A stretch of 33,483 nucleotides of DNA from Geitlerinema sp. PCC 9228 (GCF_001870905.1 NZ_LNDC01000174.1:1-33483), one strand, 5' to 3'. Counted from the first letter of the stretch, positions 13,367-24,525 are shown. Program-made: numbers and translations. Notes: generated by a model from the letters alone, not told the origin.

Positions 13367-13554
13367 GGCAACAGAACAACGTATAAAATTTTATTAAAGA
13401 TTTTCCTAAATGCTCACAATTTCCGTATTTCTATGCACTCGATCTTTTACAATAAGTCGCATTACTATATGTCTATGGGTGCGGTCTGGTAGATAAGTTG
13501 CTTCCCCTCGTACCTGGCTCTTGTTGTGCTGGATTTTACATTTTTGTGCGGTCC

Positions 13555-16500
13555 ATGAAAGTGCTACCTTCTCGAAAACTGTTTCGCGTTGCCCGGTTTC
13601 TGCTTATTGCTGCTTGCGTTTGTGGCATGGCACTTGGGTTGAATTTTTATTTCTTTCAAAACAACGACCCCCTGTACATTGCTATCTTGGCACCGGAGGA
13701 CAGTGCCAGCGGTGAAGAAATGATTCGGGGCGCTAAGATGTATATTCAGGAAGTCAATGATAGCAAGGAGGGTGGCATTGACGGCAGACAAATAAAACTG
13801 AAGGTCTTCGACGATGAAAGCGAAGTAGAAACTGGTAGGAACCAAGCCAAAGAAATTGCTGACGGTCAATTTTTACTTACATTGGGCTCTTATTCCAGTT
13901 CGGTGTCCATTGCAGCCGGAAAAGTTTTTCAAGAGCACGATCTGCCCGCCATCACGGCTATTTCTGAGGCTGGTGAGGTCACCAAAGGCAACGATGTCTA
14001 CTTTCGGGCAACCTTTACCACCAGCGACCAAGGTAGCTTCCTCGCCAGCTACCTTAACAAAATTCTCGGACGAGAAGCAGCGACCGTCATTTACAACCAG
14101 AGGGATGATTTTAGCGAATCTCTTGCTAGTAGCTTTTGGAATAACTTCCAAGGTCTTGGCGGGCAAATCAATCACACAATTGACATTAAAGACTATTATA
14201 CGGAAGAAGGTGAATTTCAGCCCTTGGCTTTGTTTAACCAAAAGTTGCTTACCATTGAACCCGATAATATAGGAACTGTCGTCTTGCTGACCCGAGCCAA
14301 AGAAGCGGCAGACATCGTCGCCAATCTAAAAAGAGCGGGCATCGATGCGCCCATTATTGGCGGTACCCCTTTGTTTGAAAAAACTTTTCGCGAGGAAATT
14401 GATAAGTATCCAGAAACGCAAGCAAAACCAGGATATTTTTTCGATGGGATTTACGCTACGTCACCACTGATTTACGATATTGCTGGTGAAGAAACGCAAG
14501 CCTTTAAAAAGAAATATAGGGAATTTGTTGATGATGGGAAAGAGCCTAGCTGGATTGGGGCTATGTCATACGAGAGTGCCAAAATTGCCGTGGAAGCCCT
14601 AAAAGAAGCCAAGGTAGCGCAAACCCCAGAAAAAGATATAAAAGATATTCAAGAAAAGCGGAAAGCGGTTCTCCAGGCTCTCTTGCAAATGCGGAGTGTC
14701 GATCGGGGTGTTCGGGGATTGGATAGAAATTTGTATTTCAATCGCGATCGCAATCTGCCCCGTGCGATCGCAATGGGTGTATATGAAAAACAAGAATTTA
14801 TCTCTGCCCCCATACAGTTGCAACCCATTCACAACGCCGAAGCCATCGATCGATTGAACGCAAAAGTTGAAGACGGTGAAATTCTGCGCTTTGACGGCAA
14901 GTATGCTCATGTCACGAAAGTCGTGTACACGGGAATTGATATTAACGAAATATCCAGACTGGATCTCAAAAGAAAACGATACATCGCTGACTTTTTCCTG
15001 TGGTTTCGTTACCGTGACGATGGCGATCAAAATTCCAATGACAATGAAAAACCGAATTTACAAGATATAGAATTTTTAAATTCTGAAAAAACCATCGAAC
15101 TGGACAATCCCATCGACGAGATTGACGAGGGGGACAGTCGCATCAAAGTCCGAACGTTTCGGGTTAAAACAAGATTTCAAGGGGACTTTGACTTCCGAGA
15201 CTACCCCTTTGACGTGCAGCAGCTCACAGTAAAATTCCGCCATGCAAACCTTACTCGCAAAAACATTATTTATGCGGCCGATAACGTGGGCATGAACAAT
15301 AGCGATCTTTCCGAAAAAATCGATCGCGGTGGTGTTCTGGAAACGCTAGATACGTGGGAATTTAAAGATGCCAAGTTCTTTGAAAGCGTCAGCAAAAATT
15401 ATTCTTCCCTAGGAAACGTAGACAAAGTGGGCTTGAATGATGGCATTCAATATTCCCAGTTCAACGCCATTATAGAAATCAAACGGAATTCTTCTACCTT
15501 TAGCATCAACAAACTGCTACCCCTCGGCTTTTTCATCTGGATTTTATACCTTTACCTGTTCTTTCCTTTGGGAAATTTCTCCGCCGAAACTGTCGGTGGC
15601 ATTCTGCTGGGTGTGGTCTTTTTCCATATCGGCTTAAAATCCGAACTAGCGGTGGCTTCCATTACCACCCTAGATAAAATTTTCTACATTATTTACGGTT
15701 TAATCGCCACCCAAGTGGTTTTGGTGACAACCGTGGTTAAATTTCGAGATCGGGAAAAATCTCAAAAGAGGCTCAAGTTGCTGGTGCACGGGTTCCGCTT
15801 TGCTTTCCCCCTCTATTTGTTTTTGGCCAACTTCATGGTACTACAAAACTACAATCTGTTACCCGTTGACAACGGCACGCAAACGTTTCAAGAAGAAACA
15901 GCACCAAAAGACTTGAATGAAGGGGTTTCCCCGGAGCAGCAAACTACCTTAACCCTTGCCAACTGGCATCCTATGGATAAAGGAAAGTTTCAAGAACTCT
16001 TCGAAGCTTACTATCAAAACCATCCCAATATCAAAATTGAAACCCTTTCTACCCCCTATAACCTGTACGGAGAATCTATAAAAGCTCAATTTCAACAGGG
16101 AACGGCACCGGATTTGGTGTTTTTACGTTCCTACGATCTCGATCGCGACTTATTTTATCAAGGATATCTAACTTCTTTTGACAAAAACAATTGGCCGGCA
16201 TTGGAAAAAACCTATCCCCAGAAATTTCTGTCGGCTTGGACTACGAAAAAAGGCGATATCTATGGCATTCCCCTTAGTGGCGTTGTTCATGGAATTTTTT
16301 ATAATGCCGATCTATTTCGCCAGTTGGGTTTGTCAGTGCCGCAAACTTGGGAGCAGTTGCTGAATGTTGCCCAAGTAATTCAAAATACGGGCACAACTCC
16401 CTTTGCCAACAGTATTGGCAATATCTCGCAAAGCTTTGACGAGACCCTATTTACCACATTGGTTCCAAACTTTACCGGCGGTTACACGGGTCGGTTGGCT

Positions 16501-17133
16501 TACCAAGGTGGCAGTCGCTGTTTTAACGACGAGGGAATTGTGGCTACATTTCGGGCTATTTCCCAGTTGCAACCTTATTTAGACGAGGAAAACTTGTCCA
16601 ATTTTCAAAGTATAAAACGTTTCTTAAACGGTCAAGCTGCTATGTGGATTGGTGGTTCCTGGAATTTGCCAAACTTCACTCAACAAGATATCGACTTCCA
16701 ATGGCAGACTTTTGCCGTACCACCGCCAGCTGGTCGAAAAGGTTACACCGTGTTTCACCCCAACTTTGCTGTGGGGTTGAACGCTCAGTCTCCCCACAAG
16801 CAGGAAGCCAAAGAATTTTTGCGGTGGTTGATGACACCAGAAGCCGCTAAGATACTAACCACGAAGTTAGAAGGCAATTTTGCCTTGCACAAGCAAATGC
16901 CCGACATTGAAAACACGAAAGCCCAGAGGTTTTACTCGTTTGTGCAAGATCGAGATACAGACGTGCGGTGGACCTACCCCGAACTGCATGAGAAAATTCC
17001 TGGCGGTCACACCCTCACCAAGGAAGCCTCCAAAAAGGTGCTCAGTGGAGATATGACCCCTCAAGAGGCAGCCAACCACTTGCAAGAGGGACTAGGGGAG
17101 TGGTATACCTCTGCTCAAACTTGCAAGGACTAA
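13555..17133 (+). CDS. Two-receptor ligand-gated ion channel: type I SBP + pLGIC + C-terminal sugar-type SBP
   Basis: The 1192-residue predicted inner-membrane receptor channel has these domains in order. (1) An uncleaved signal or anchor helix, residues about 15-34. (2) A type I periplasmic-binding (LivJ-like) domain, about 40-425 (LYIAILAPEDSASGEEMIRG opening, KAGIDAPIIGG-like core). (3) A pLGIC extracellular domain, about 450-640, with the cysteine-free Pro-loop YPFDVQQ at 550-556. (4) M1 653-671, M2 about 678-694, M3 703-728, and M4 745-763 (FRFAFPLYLFLANF, strikingly like GLIC M4 as I remember it). (5) An extracellular family-1 (MalE-like) solute-binding domain, about 798-1192, with YGIPLSG and FFIPxP-like cores. 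The N-in start and four pore helices place all three ligand-binding domains in the periplasm (inference). The ORF is open from a TTG at 13498, but the ATG at 13555 gives a normal N-terminus. The next gene, 45 bases on, is a paralogue, so the two probably form an operon. The ligand is unknown. Confidence 0.85.
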   Translation: MKVLPSRKLFRVARFLLIAACVCGMALGLNFYFFQNNDPLYIAILAPEDSASGEEMIRGAKMYIQEVNDSKEGGIDGRQIKLKVFDDESEVETGRNQAKEIADGQFLLTLGSYSSSVSIAAGKVFQEHDLPAITAISEAGEVTKGNDVYFRATFTTSDQGSFLASYLNKILGREAATVIYNQRDDFSESLASSFWNNFQGLGGQINHTIDIKDYYTEEGEFQPLALFNQKLLTIEPDNIGTVVLLTRAKEAADIVANLKRAGIDAPIIGGTPLFEKTFREEIDKYPETQAKPGYFFDGIYATSPLIYDIAGEETQAFKKKYREFVDDGKEPSWIGAMSYESAKIAVEALKEAKVAQTPEKDIKDIQEKRKAVLQALLQMRSVDRGVRGLDRNLYFNRDRNLPRAIAMGVYEKQEFISAPIQLQPIHNAEAIDRLNAKVEDGEILRFDGKYAHVTKVVYTGIDINEISRLDLKRKRYIADFFLWFRYRDDGDQNSNDNEKPNLQDIEFLNSEKTIELDNPIDEIDEGDSRIKVRTFRVKTRFQGDFDFRDYPFDVQQLTVKFRHANLTRKNIIYAADNVGMNNSDLSEKIDRGGVLETLDTWEFKDAKFFESVSKNYSSLGNVDKVGLNDGIQYSQFNAIIEIKRNSSTFSINKLLPLGFFIWILYLYLFFPLGNFSAETVGGILLGVVFFHIGLKSELAVASITTLDKIFYIIYGLIATQVVLVTTVVKFRDREKSQKRLKLLVHGFRFAFPLYLFLANFMVLQNYNLLPVDNGTQTFQEETAPKDLNEGVSPEQQTTLTLANWHPMDKGKFQELFEAYYQNHPNIKIETLSTPYNLYGESIKAQFQQGTAPDLVFLRSYDLDRDLFYQGYLTSFDKNNWPALEKTYPQKFLSAWTTKKGDIYGIPLSGVVHGIFYNADLFRQLGLSVPQTWEQLLNVAQVIQNTGTTPFANSIGNISQSFDETLFTTLVPNFTGGYTGRLAYQGGSRCFNDEGIVATFRAISQLQPYLDEENLSNFQSIKRFLNGQAAMWIGGSWNLPNFTQQDIDFQWQTFAVPPPAGRKGYTVFHPNFAVGLNAQSPHKQEAKEFLRWLMTPEAAKILTTKLEGNFALHKQMPDIENTKAQRFYSFVQDRDTDVRWTYPELHEKIPGGHTLTKEASKKVLSGDMTPQEAANHLQEGLGEWYTSAQTCKD

Positions 17134-17178: not shown

Positions 17179-19569
17179 ATGAAAATTTCACTTTTAGGTA
17201 CGCTCTCCCATTACAAAAGATTTGTGGCGATCGCGATCGCGGTTTTTTTGACCATCTTAGCTGTCAAAGATGTTGACGTTTCTTGGTCCCCCACCAGCGA
17301 TCGCTTGTACGTGGCCATGCTGGCTCCCATGAGCGGCGATTACGAAAGTAGCGGTCGGGAAATGGAGCGGGGAGCTCGGATGTATCTCGATAAAATCAAC
17401 CAAAGTGGCGGCATCGGCGGCAAGCAGGTGGAATTGAAAATCTTTGATGACGAAGGCAGCCCAGAAAAGGGTCGGGAACAAGCCCAAAAAATTGCCAATG
17501 ACGAACGGATCGTGCTGGCAATGGGGTCTTATTTCAGTTCGGTTTCCGTTGCTGCCGGAGATGTCTATCAGAAAGCGGGGCTGCCTGCCATTACTGGCAT
17601 TTCCGTTGCCAATGAAGTCACCGAACAAAGCAACGTCTATTTTCGTACGACCGCCAACACCAGCGACCAGGGCGTTTTGTTAGCCAACTATATCAAAAAA
17701 ATTCTGAACCACGATACTGTCAGCGTTATTTTTGATAGTGGCGATACCTACAGCCAGTCTTTGAGTCGAAGTTTTCAAAATACTTTTCGGGGATTGAGCG
17801 GTCGGGTGAGCCATAAGTTAGACGCTAAAGAGTATTTAAACAATCCCAATCGAGAACTTGACATGGTTGCCTGGACGGATGAAAAACTGTTGGGGGAAAT
17901 GCAACCAGGCAACATCGGTGCGATCGTGCTCCTAACCCAAGCTTGGGAAGCCGGTAGAATTGTTGTTAGCATCAAACGTGCAGGCATTGACGCTCCCATT
18001 TTTGGGGGCAGTCCGGTATTCCAAAAAAACTTTCGCGAGGCGATCGCTGATTACCCGGAAACCCAAGCCCAACCCGGCTATTTTACCAACGGCATCTATG
18101 GGCTTTCCCCACTTATTTACGATATTTCCAGCCAAGCCGCCCAGTCATTTCAAGATCGCTTTTTTACAAAATACAGAGATAAACCCACTTGGATTGGGGC
18201 TTTGTCCTATGAAAGAACCATGGTGGCGGTTCAAGCTTTGAAAAATGCAGAACTATCCCAACCCAGCCTCCAAGAAAAACGTCGCTCTGTCTATCAGGCT
18301 TTGTTAGAGATGCGGAATGCCGAACAGGGGGTAGAAGGGTTGCAAGGGAAGATTTACTTCGATCGCGATCGCAACATGCCACGCATCCTGGCTATGGGCA
18401 GGTACGAACAAGAGTATTTCGTTTCTGCTCCCATTCAACTGCAACCCATACAAGATATAACAACGATTCCACGTGTAGAACAAGAATTGGAAAAAGAGAA
18501 CATTCTGCGATTTGGCGGTCAGTATGCTCGCATAACCCATATTGTATACACGGGAATTGATATCAACAAAATATTCCAACTCGATCTACGCAAGCAAAAA
18601 TACAATATAGACTTTTTTCTGTGGTTTCGCTATAAAGAAAGCGATCGCATGGATTTGCAACCAGAAACTATAGAATTTCTGAATTCGGTCAACCCCATCG
18701 ATTTAGGTCAACCCTTATATAAATCTAAAGAAGATGGTATTGTTCTGCGTACTTATCGAGTAAAAACCAAATTTGAGGCAGATTTTGATTTTCGCGAGTA
18801 CCCTTTTGATGTCCAGCAAATAAAAATCCAATTTCGCAACCCCAGGTATTCCCGCGAAAAAATGATTTACGTAGCCGATATTGCGGGGATGGGGGGCAAC
18901 AATCGCGAATCCAATTTAAAAAGAATCAAGCGCAGTCAAGTTCTAGATGCCTTAGACGGTTGGGGCGCGAACAATGTCCAATTTTTTGAAAGTATTAGCA
19001 CAACCCACTCTACCCTGGGAGATATTGAAAAAATCCAGATGGACAAGGAAATTACCTATTCCCAATTTAACGCGATCGCAGAATTGGAACGTTACTCCTT
19101 CCAATTTGGCATCAGCAAGCTTTTGCCCTTGGGATTTTTTATTTGGATCTTGTATCTGTTTCTGTGGTTTCCCTTCAAAAATTTCTCCACCGAATCCGTA
19201 AGCGGTATTTTATTGGGGGTATTGTTCTTTCACATGGGCTTAAAATCGGAACTACCTGAAAACAGCGGTTCCATTGTTGCCCTAGATATCATTTTCTACA
19301 TCATTTATGGATTAATTGCTGCTCAAATTTTAGTAGTATTAGCCATTGTCAAGCTCAGGGAAAATCCCCAACATCACCAACAATTAAAACGTTTAATCCG
19401 AAGTTTTCAGTTGATTTTTCTTCTCTATCTTGTCGGTGCTTTTCTGGTCATTTCTTTACAATACGACGTTTTCGATTTACCACAATTACCTGGGCAAAAT
19501 GGGTTCGTGCCGGCACAGGAAAATTCACCTTCTCCAACGATTGAGGTATCGACCAGATCGCAACAATAA
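17179..19569 (+). CDS. Type I SBP-pLGIC fusion channel, paralogue lacking C-terminal SBP
   Basis: The 796-residue paralogue of the upstream gene is homologous along its whole length. It has an anchor helix (about 13-27), a type I periplasmic-binding domain (about 42-415), a pLGIC extracellular domain with Pro-loop YPFDVQQ at 541-547, M1 ending at WFPF (663-666), M2 from E672 to L688, M3 about 698-725, and M4 about 738-760. The pore sequence is nearly the same as the first copy (ESVSGILLGVLFFHMGL versus ETVGGILLGVVFFHIGL). After M4 only about 36 linker residues remain before a TAA at 19567-19569. In the same frame beyond this stop, the sequence continues as a recognisable start of the solute-binding domain, so the protein is a truncated form. 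The channel part itself is intact and free of stops. It could co-assemble with the longer paralogue as a heteropentamer (inference). Confidence 0.85.
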   Translation: MKISLLGTLSHYKRFVAIAIAVFLTILAVKDVDVSWSPTSDRLYVAMLAPMSGDYESSGREMERGARMYLDKINQSGGIGGKQVELKIFDDEGSPEKGREQAQKIANDERIVLAMGSYFSSVSVAAGDVYQKAGLPAITGISVANEVTEQSNVYFRTTANTSDQGVLLANYIKKILNHDTVSVIFDSGDTYSQSLSRSFQNTFRGLSGRVSHKLDAKEYLNNPNRELDMVAWTDEKLLGEMQPGNIGAIVLLTQAWEAGRIVVSIKRAGIDAPIFGGSPVFQKNFREAIADYPETQAQPGYFTNGIYGLSPLIYDISSQAAQSFQDRFFTKYRDKPTWIGALSYERTMVAVQALKNAELSQPSLQEKRRSVYQALLEMRNAEQGVEGLQGKIYFDRDRNMPRILAMGRYEQEYFVSAPIQLQPIQDITTIPRVEQELEKENILRFGGQYARITHIVYTGIDINKIFQLDLRKQKYNIDFFLWFRYKESDRMDLQPETIEFLNSVNPIDLGQPLYKSKEDGIVLRTYRVKTKFEADFDFREYPFDVQQIKIQFRNPRYSREKMIYVADIAGMGGNNRESNLKRIKRSQVLDALDGWGANNVQFFESISTTHSTLGDIEKIQMDKEITYSQFNAIAELERYSFQFGISKLLPLGFFIWILYLFLWFPFKNFSTESVSGILLGVLFFHMGLKSELPENSGSIVALDIIFYIIYGLIAAQILVVLAIVKLRENPQHHQQLKRLIRSFQLIFLLYLVGAFLVISLQYDVFDLPQLPGQNGFVPAQENSPSPTIEVSTRSQQ

Positions 19570-19698
19570 GCAAAAGATACGACGGTTTTAAGTTTAGAAA
19601 CTTGGAAACTAGAATACCAAGGCGAGTTTCAGAAACTGTTGGCAGATTTTTATAAAAAACATCCAAACATCAGAATTAAAACCCTGGCAGGACCTTAT

Positions 19699-19837
19699 AC
19701 CATTTCCTTAATAATATGCAAGAGATAATAGAGGCATTTTGGTAGGGGCGCAACGCGTGAGTAGGGGCGCTTCGCGAAGCGCCCCTACCAGGGAAATTGA
19801 GAAATTCCAGACAATCGTTGTTTTTCAGAAATAGTAT
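19699..19837. mobile_element. MITE-like palindromic insertion A
   Basis: The element is about 139 bases with a perfect 28-base palindrome at its core (19761-19788, gtaggggcgcttcg and its complement) and a second g/c-rich word, taggggcgc, at 19743. The ends atACCATTTCC (19697-19707) and GAAATAGTat (19828-19837) are imperfect inverted repeats next to a repeated TAT/TA. The arm AGACAATCGTTGTTTT (19809-19824) is the exact complement of 22863-22878, so another copy exists there. It sits inside the relic solute-binding domain; removing it and one TAT rejoins the reading frame. Confidence 0.7.
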
Positions 19838-19897: not shown

Positions 19898-20028
19898 ATA
19901 CCAAATCCGACATGGAAAACCACAATTTTTTCGTCGGGGCAACCCCCGCTGTGGGTCCATTTTATCGGGGTAGGCACGGGGGCGCTGCCCCGACATTTTT
20001 GTGGGTTTATGTACATTGGATTTGGTAT
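19898..20028. mobile_element. MITE-like palindromic insertion B
   Basis: The 131-base element begins ATACCAAATCC (19898-19908) and ends GGATTTGGTAT (20018-20028), exact 11-base inverted termini. Inner inverted words continue (cgtcggggca / tgccccgaca). TA lies at both outer ends, as in IS630/Tc1-type MITEs that duplicate TA. It carries no coding capacity. Its right end recurs at 4684-4719. It interrupts the relic solute-binding domain at the DL-V position. Confidence 0.75.
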
Positions 20029-20301
20029 CCTGTTTTTCGGACCATATCCCCTCGATCGCGATTTGTTTGAACGAGGTTATTTAGCATCTTGGAACCAACT
20101 GCCCGGTTTGCAAAAAGCCTATCCCAGCCAATCGCTATCTCCTTGGAGAACCAAAGATAACGAAATCTACGGCGTTCCCCTTAGTGGTGCCGTTTATGGT
20201 ATTTATTACAATGTCGATTTGTTTGACAAACTAGCCCTTGATATTCCACAAACCTGGCAAGAGTGGTATACACCTGCCCAAACTTGTGGGGAAAACGATG
20301 G

Positions 20302-23235: not shown

Positions 23236-24525
23236 ATGACTGCCTCCCATTCCGTACCCCTACACCAAGATTCCCTTTCCCTCAGACATGCAGAATTTGT
23301 AAACCTCCTTGCCAATACAGAAAATTTGCTCCTCATTCAAGATTTGGATGGGGTTTGTATGGAGTTGGTTCGCGATCCCTTGCAAAGAACCATCGACTGC
23401 GACTACGTCAAAGCCACCACCGCCTTCGACAACCATTTTTTTGTACTCACCAACGGCGAACATGTGGGTAAGCGAGGCGTTAACGGCATCGTAGAAAAAG
23501 CCTTTGGCTATGCCAGCGAAGTGAAACAACAAGGGTGGTACCTACCGGGATTGGCAGCAGGCGGCATACAATGGCAGGATCGTTTTGGCCATCTTTCCCA
23601 TCCTGGGGTCAGCGATGCGGAATGGCAGTTTTTACAAACCATTCCCCAAACCATGGCGACCCGCTTGCGGCAGTTTTTGCAGAAACACCAGGAAATTTTA
23701 TCGGCAGCAGAAATCGAACAATGCGTGGATGCTTGCGTGTTGGATCATGTGGCTTCGCCAACAGCCAATCTCAATACCGCTTTCGATCGGTTGCATGCCC
23801 ATCCCGAAATTTACGCGGCATTGCAACAAGATATGCAACAATTGATGGTAGAGCTATTGCAAGAGGCCTCCCGCTGGGGTTTGGGGGATTCGTTTTTCGT
23901 ACATTATGCCCCCAATTTGGGGAAAGATGCCCAAGGTAATGAGATTTTGCAGCCAGCTACCGATAGCGATTCGGGAACCACGGATTTTCAGTTTATGCTG
24001 CGTGGTGCCATGAAAGAGGCGGGGGTGTTGGTGATTTTAAACTACTACTATTTTTTGCATACCGGTCACTATCCCCTAGGGAAAGATTTTAACGCCCGCA
24101 CGGCACCGAAAAGTCATGCAGAACTTTTGCAAGCGGTAACGGAACATTTCGATCCAAAACTTATGCCGGTGATGGTGGGAGTTGGCGATACGGTTACCAG
24201 CCAGCTTACTTGGGAAAACGACCGCTGGGTGGTGCGTCGCGGTGGCAGCGATCGCAATTTTTTGCAATTGGTGCAAGATATTGGCAAGCAAGGTCAAACT
24301 GGGAATGTTGTGGTTTATGTAGACAGCAGCGGCGGTGAAGTGAAAAATCGCAAACCTTTGCGGTTAGAACCAGATACCCAGCAAACTTGGTATGTGGTGG
24401 AAGGTCCGGGCGATCGCCGCGATACGAACGATCCTTTACAACTTAACATTGTTTTCCCTGGCGGTCACCAACAATACGCGCTATCTTTTCGGCAAGCAGC
24501 CCAAAAACGCCGGTTGAGTTTATGA
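23236..24525 (+). CDS. stpA: Glucosylglycerol 3-phosphatase
   Basis: The 429-residue enzyme removes phosphate from glucosylglycerol 3-phosphate to give the compatible solute glucosylglycerol, the last step after GgpS. The HAD-type active site LLIQDLDGVCMELVRDPLQR lies at residues about 32-51 (DxDG nucleophile pair). Further family-typical blocks are FFVLTNGEHVGKRGVNGIVE, LPGLAAGGIQWQD, and the C-terminal MPVMVGVGDTVTSQLTW, which supplies the late HAD aspartate. The length matches the known cyanobacterial StpA. The N-terminal extension is short, with no signal peptide. ggpS is not in the window. The gene is monocistronic, with its own promoter candidate and a downstream inverted repeat. It points to a salt-adapted cyanobacterium. 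Confidence 0.93.
   Translation: MTASHSVPLHQDSLSLRHAEFVNLLANTENLLLIQDLDGVCMELVRDPLQRTIDCDYVKATTAFDNHFFVLTNGEHVGKRGVNGIVEKAFGYASEVKQQGWYLPGLAAGGIQWQDRFGHLSHPGVSDAEWQFLQTIPQTMATRLRQFLQKHQEILSAAEIEQCVDACVLDHVASPTANLNTAFDRLHAHPEIYAALQQDMQQLMVELLQEASRWGLGDSFFVHYAPNLGKDAQGNEILQPATDSDSGTTDFQFMLRGAMKEAGVLVILNYYYFLHTGHYPLGKDFNARTAPKSHAELLQAVTEHFDPKLMPVMVGVGDTVTSQLTWENDRWVVRRGGSDRNFLQLVQDIGKQGQTGNVVVYVDSSGGEVKNRKPLRLEPDTQQTWYVVEGPGDRRDTNDPLQLNIVFPGGHQQYALSFRQAAQKRRLSL

Follow-up and report, generated by a model that had tools for sequence, protein, structure and literature searches.

To our knowledge, little has been established about what bacterial pLGICs bind or which roles they play in the cell. The closest described channels, GLIC and ELIC, share with the protein reported here an extracellular beta-sandwich, a Pro-loop motif and four helices. 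However, they have neither an N-terminal type I periplasmic-binding (PBP-I) domain nor any domain after the last helix, M4. PBP-I domains located N-terminal to bacterial channels were described by Tasneem et al. (PMC549065), with extra domains placed after the signal peptide and before the channel; PBP-II proteins were encoded by separate adjacent genes of predicted operons. The same authors proposed that the PBP domains concentrate ligand. An inventory of Pro-loop receptors (PMC4795631) discarded the N- and C-terminal regions flanking the signature domains. In DeCLIC, a pLGIC core is modulated by an extra periplasmic domain, although this domain is N-terminal and calcium-linked rather than a solute-binding protein, and nothing follows M4. 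Ionotropic glutamate receptors of the AMPA and NMDA types also combine PBP-I, PBP-II and a pore, but their pore is unrelated and is inserted in the PBP-II domain.

The window analysed here is the whole 33,483-nucleotide stretch of DNA from Geitlerinema sp. PCC 9228. It carries two adjacent genes, termed P1 and P2, whose parts are as follows.

13555..17133, + strand: P1, three-domain fusion gene (PBP-I, pLGIC core and family-1 SBP), 1192 aa (ORF, Pfam, AlphaFold pLDDT 87)
13573..13659, + strand: N-terminal hydrophobic helix of P1, residues 7-35 (hydropathy; helix 7-35 in the predicted structure)
13666..14829, + strand: type I periplasmic-binding domain of P1, LivJ/LivK-like, residues 38-425 (PF13458; Z score to LivK/LivJ)
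14881..15489, + strand: pLGIC extracellular beta-sandwich of P1 with YPFDxQ Pro-loop, residues 443-645 (GLIC/ELIC profile match; fold)
15490..15849, + strand: pore helices M1-M4 of P1 (profile alignment to GLIC; model)
15850..15939, + strand: disordered, acidic tether after M4 of P1, residues 766-795 (pLDDT <50 at 769-789; charges)
15940..17130, + strand: family-1 SBP domain of P1, RafE-like, residues 796-1192 (PF01547, 1.2e-33; RafE, 3e-19; Z 37-41; Cys989, Cys1190)
17179..19569, + strand: P2, tandem sister subunit with PBP-I and pLGIC core and without SBP, 796 aa (ORF, Pfam, own-genome search, core tree)
19570..19704, + strand: SBP debris, in frame behind the P2 stop (translation; tblastn 2e-9)
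20027..20293, + strand: second SBP debris, in a different reading frame and with an internal deletion, joined to the end motif EWYTPAQTC (translation; tblastn 1e-25)

The PBP-I-fused ART-LGICs (PMC549065) have exactly the layout of P2. In contrast to P1, they are described with extra domains only before the channel, and PBP-II is an operon partner rather than a fused domain after M4. The PBP-II unit of P1 also differs in placement from that of glutamate receptors, since it follows M4 on a tether. A solute-binding domain after M4 of a pLGIC was not found in the open-access literature; the N-terminal PBP-I fusion was already known (PMC549065).

Architecture of the P1 protein

The P1 reading frame (13498/13555-17133, + strand) has 1211 open codons, or 1192 when counted from the ATG at 13555; the TTG at 13498 is an alternative start. 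Residues 7-35 probably form either a signal peptide or a signal anchor. Matches far over the curated Pfam cut-offs were obtained for Peripla_BP_6 at residues 50-388 (1.7e-31) and for SBP_bac_1 at residues 811-1099. In the model the PBP-I fold covers residues 40-425. The complete pLGIC core occupies residues 443-765, with AlphaFold helix limits of 646-669 for M1, 677-695 for M2, 700-730 for M3 and 736-765 for M4. The SBP domain spans approximately residues 796-1190, and its modelled fold starts at about 796/797. The only cysteines of P1 are at positions 21, 23, 989 and 1190. All parts are supported by the AlphaFold models, which are monomers, with a mean pLDDT of 87 for the whole protein and 91 for the core alone. 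We consider this architecture virtually certain. The domain identities and their order, the four transmembrane helices and the beginning of the SBP near residue 796 are as proposed in an earlier sequence-only reading of this DNA, and structural modelling, which that reading had put forward for a pentamer, backs every domain when run on the monomer.

The channel core of P1 is not reported by the Pfam models Neur_chan_LBD and Neur_chan_memb at their curated cut-offs, a result that the sequence-only reading had named as grounds for abandoning the channel assignment. We reject that use of the missing matches, since the profile and fold searches settle the question. P2 scores just below the Neur_chan_LBD cut-off (2.7e-5, 24.1 bits against a cut-off of 26), and several fused sisters of P1 pass that of Neur_chan_memb. 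A phmmer search against the PDB matched P1 residues 534-762 to an ELIC-GLIC chimera (7e-7). A profile of 14 relatives matched GLIC across the extracellular domain (ECD) and M1-M4 (2e-16), and one of 66 relatives matched ELIC (5e-28) and GLIC (1e-24) in a single continuous stretch. The model of the P1 core aligned with GluCl, GLIC and GABA-A receptor structures at a Z score of ~21 across 281-296 residues. The Pro-loop Y550-P551-F552-D553-x-Q555 is invariant among the fusions and aligns with YPFDSQ of GLIC. The disulfide of animal Cys-loop receptors is absent, as the ECD of P1 has no cysteine. Judged from these profiles and the predicted fold, the P1 core is unmistakably a homologue of GLIC and ELIC, comprising an ECD beta-sandwich and four transmembrane helices.

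When M2 of P1 is numbered by its profile alignment to GLIC, Asn674 falls at position -2′, Glu678 at 2′ and Leu685 at 9′. The predicted ring of glutamates at 2′ is a hint that the pore permeates cations. Of 105 conserved columns, P1 retains 91, the same number as P2. Its M2-M3 loop is shortened by a two-residue deletion, Pro699 is replaced by Ala, and Tyr702 is lost. Given these changes, P1 may not gate normally alone.

The tandem sister gene and its lost domain

P2 lies 45 bp from P1 on the same strand and is approximately 50% identical to it. Its PBP-I domain and channel are intact. The C-terminal end is a tether that resembles those of the fused proteins, PSPTIEVSTRSQQ, which may be compared with PPIEVST and PTLEIST in Spirulina. 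The two pieces of SBP debris follow this end, separated by approximately 320 nt of unrelated sequence. P2 once had an SBP domain that is now lost, and the decay is seen directly in the window. A search downstream of other unfused sisters gave no SBP debris, and such decay is documented in the window only.

In a rival explanation, P1 is an accessory subunit that functions solely in combination with P2, with P2 giving the gating-competent pore and P1 adding the SBP sensor to a heteropentamer. The short spacing and shared strand of the two genes are consistent with this explanation, as are the tandem pairs common in the family and the fact that the two-residue M2-M3 deletion and the Pro699Ala change occur in P1 alone. 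However, the two fused copies of Spirulina have intact M2-M3 loops, several genomes have a single fused gene, and P1 has kept as many conserved columns as its sister. We consider such an accessory role for P1 unlikely. A P1/P2 heteropentamer is nevertheless a serious possibility because tandem pairs are common and P1 carries the changes in and near the M2-M3 loop. The sequence-only reading had envisaged a pentamer displaying five of each binding domain. This stoichiometry is uncertain, since P2 lacks the SBP and tandem pairs are common, so that heteropentamers are possible.

Distribution and history of the fusion

At least 13 homologues with the domain order of P1 are present in Cyanobacteriota, Chloroflexota and beggiatoa-type Pseudomonadota, as established by the kind of phylogenetic search that the sequence-only reading had recommended. 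That reading was aware of no other pLGIC with a MalE-like domain after M4. P1 does not stand alone: the fusion is a conserved kind of putative receptor occurring in at least three phyla. Besides the P1 genome, a single one of 389 from the same order, that of Spirulina sp. CS-785/01, has two tandem full-length fusions of 1188 and 1185 aa that are ~50% identical. A fusion copy truncated at both ends was also observed among the 389 (L034:7850-9763, - strand, in genome G119, where the contig is 6.4 Mb long), which retains the end of the PBP-I domain, the channel core and half of an SBP domain.

A channel-core scan of 84,980 species yielded 78 loci, using patterns derived from P1 relatives, so that divergent fusions will be missed. 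Fusions with approximately 430 residues past M4 were recovered from Spirulina sp. CS-785/01 (two), a Pseudanabaenaceae MAG, Parabeggiatoa, Halobeggiatoa, Thioploca and five Chloroflexota MAGs, two of which have fusions that end at a contig end. Whole-genome searches revealed three fusions in Parabeggiatoa and two in Halobeggiatoa. The mean pairwise identity among the fusions is 41% for the SBP, 44% for the ECD, 38% for the TMD and 37% for PBP-I. By these values the SBP domain is as conserved as the channel. The SBP is attached at the same place in all three phyla by tethers of 27-44 residues.

These homologues bear on whether the P1 fusion might be an artefact of assembly or two genes joined by chance read-through. 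The window comes from a draft genome of 223 contigs, and few Cyanobacteriota have the fusion architecture (2 of the 386 genomes sampled). However, the junction recurs in further species across three phyla, and the SBP domains of fused proteins form one clade. The probability of an artefact is accordingly negligible, and the independent homologues in effect exclude the frameshift or assembly join near residue 790 that the sequence-only reading had raised.

When compared with 17 stand-alone solute-binding proteins, all from cyanobacterial genomes and seven of them partial rows, the SBP domains of the fusions form a single clade with support of 100/99. The fusion label requires eight changes on the tree of channel cores, at least five of which are forced by well-supported branches, and the SBP has been lost in other sisters besides P2. 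The simplest reading of the two trees is that one fusion arose, spread across phyla and suffered repeated loss of the SBP; transfer of the domain would be the alternative explanation of the core tree. Independent fusion in each lineage was also considered, but the SBP tree favours one origin.

Three Chloroflexota fusions (L078:5429-9346, L081:5672-9331 and L084:5702-9334) have the lipobox-like starts LLANC, LVSAC and IISSC, and their N-termini may be lipid-anchored. A Streptomyces protein (L099:5108-7969) has a TPR-like N-terminal part followed by PBP-I and the channel core. Two further architectures are related to that of P1.

L066:348-3092, L070:652-3393, L083:2893-5673, L103:2411-5416: PBP-I + SBP_bac_5 genes, ~910-1000 aa (Pfam-checked)
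L064, L076, L085, L089, L090, L104: similar PBP-I + SBP_bac_5 ORFs
L035:663-3608 (-), L036:1928-4972 (+), L037:251-3310 (+), and a partial copy in L133: PBP-I/ECD/MscS proteins

In Desulfobacteria, the PBP-I + SBP_bac_5 protein has no channel, and its gene immediately precedes tandem PBP-I-channel genes, an arrangement that we read as an in-trans version of the two-sensor partnership. The second architecture, in which PBP-I and a pLGIC-type ECD are carried on an MscS-type channel, occurs in 4 of the 389 genomes of the order (one partial); these cyanobacterial proteins are 980-1020 aa long. The core profile matches their ECD at domain E values of 1e-27 to 2e-39, with the Pro-loop replaced, and the remainder matches MS_channel_2nd and MscS structures (2e-18). 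By these matches, the chimera is a pentameric-receptor ectodomain on a mechanosensitive-family pore. Nothing relevant to such a chimera was found in the open-access literature.

Two predicted sensors and their proposed coupling to the pore

The PBP-I fold of P1 is strongly similar to those of LivK and LivJ (Z 43), which is consistent with the amino-acid-like input suggested by the sequence-only reading. However, an acid follows the GG pair (GGD) in 40 of 54 relatives whereas P1 has Thr271 at this position, and Glu138 takes the place of the conserved first-lobe Thr. P1 thus has neither the conserved acid nor the Thr at two positions whose roles in amino-acid binding we take from LivJ-type structures. 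An amino-acid ligand is therefore not assured, and this part of the earlier proposal is weakly supported.

The C-terminal domain has the fold and sequence character of RafE/MsmE-type sugar-binding proteins, but unlike these it is tethered to a channel, belongs to its own clade and has no importer genes recognised nearby. It matches RafE in sequence at 3e-19, and its closest solved relatives, at Z scores of 37-41, are RafE and chito- and xylo-oligosaccharide-binding proteins, which include binders of raffinose-type and other oligosaccharides. Because these relatives bind oligosaccharides, our best guess at its ligand is a sugar or an osmolyte resembling one, and the sugar-like input of the sequence-only reading is plausible. 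A gene for glucosylglycerol-phosphate phosphatase (23236-24525; PF09506, 7e-177) lies approximately 6 kb downstream of P1. Glucosylglycerol may be one candidate ligand, although the proximity of this gene may be due to chance.

Two features bear on the side of the membrane occupied by the SBP domain. The M3-M4 loop carries seven positive and two negative charges, whereas the tether after M4 carries one positive and six negative. In addition, a Cys pair (Cys989 and Cys1190 in P1) is present in the SBP domain of every complete fusion and missing in most of the stand-alone proteins compared. This positive-inside pattern and a conserved Cys pair suited to the oxidising periplasm indicate that the domain most likely lies outside, beside the ECD ring, in agreement with the outward-facing C-terminus that had been assumed for P1.

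We propose that P1 assembles as a pentamer, which may also include P2. A ligand bound by the N-terminal part would act through the beta-sandwich on the pore, a route that we assume by analogy because known pLGICs behave in this way. The C-terminal domain would capture a sugar-like solute and bias gating either via M4 or by docking on the extracellular ring. Modulation of pLGICs at the outer end of M4 is known, which makes a tethered SBP a plausible second input. We assign a probability of approximately 0.5 to this model as a whole, namely a ligand-gated, probably cation-selective channel with two outside sensors, the second of which would be coupled to gating; the location, pentameric state, cation preference, sugar-like ligand and coupling are all predicted. 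Points for it are the fold of each domain, the recurrence of the architecture in three phyla, an SBP as conserved as the channel with its Cys pair and single clade, the charge pattern, the M2 register, and the PBP-II partners that are encoded in trans in Desulfobacteria and as operon neighbours (PMC549065). Points against it are the loss of the SBP from P2 and other sisters, which suggests that the channel functions without need for this domain, the replaced residues of the PBP-I pocket and the altered M2-M3 loop of P1.

The disordered tether could provide loose attachment without mechanical coupling. The C-terminal domain might then be a local ligand trap, or might serve another protein by capturing ligand, and would not be mechanically coupled to M4. 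The length and disorder of the tether and the repeated loss of the SBP are compatible with such a role, as is the proposal that PBP domains concentrate ligand (PMC549065). This explanation is less readily reconciled with the strict attachment at one place in three phyla, the narrow range of tether lengths and the conservation of the SBP together with the channel. Moreover, no ABC permease or ATPase was recognised in the window, which argues against a version in which the solute is delivered to an importer. We judge a trap unlikely, and prefer the model in which the SBP is a second gating input.

Extended to the family, this model would define a conserved class of pLGICs in at least three phyla, in which gating is set jointly by a PBP-I domain above and a sugar-sensing PBP-II domain at the side, tethered to the outer end of M4. 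Such a class would be an independent counterpart of the glutamate-receptor layout, a proposal that we hold tentatively and with somewhat less confidence than the model for P1. The pairing of PBP-I and PBP-II parallels that of glutamate receptors on an unrelated pore. As these receptors carry their own binding modules, ligands could be found through simple binding assays of the soluble domains, and the attachment after M4 offers a direct test of whether M4 can be a gating input.
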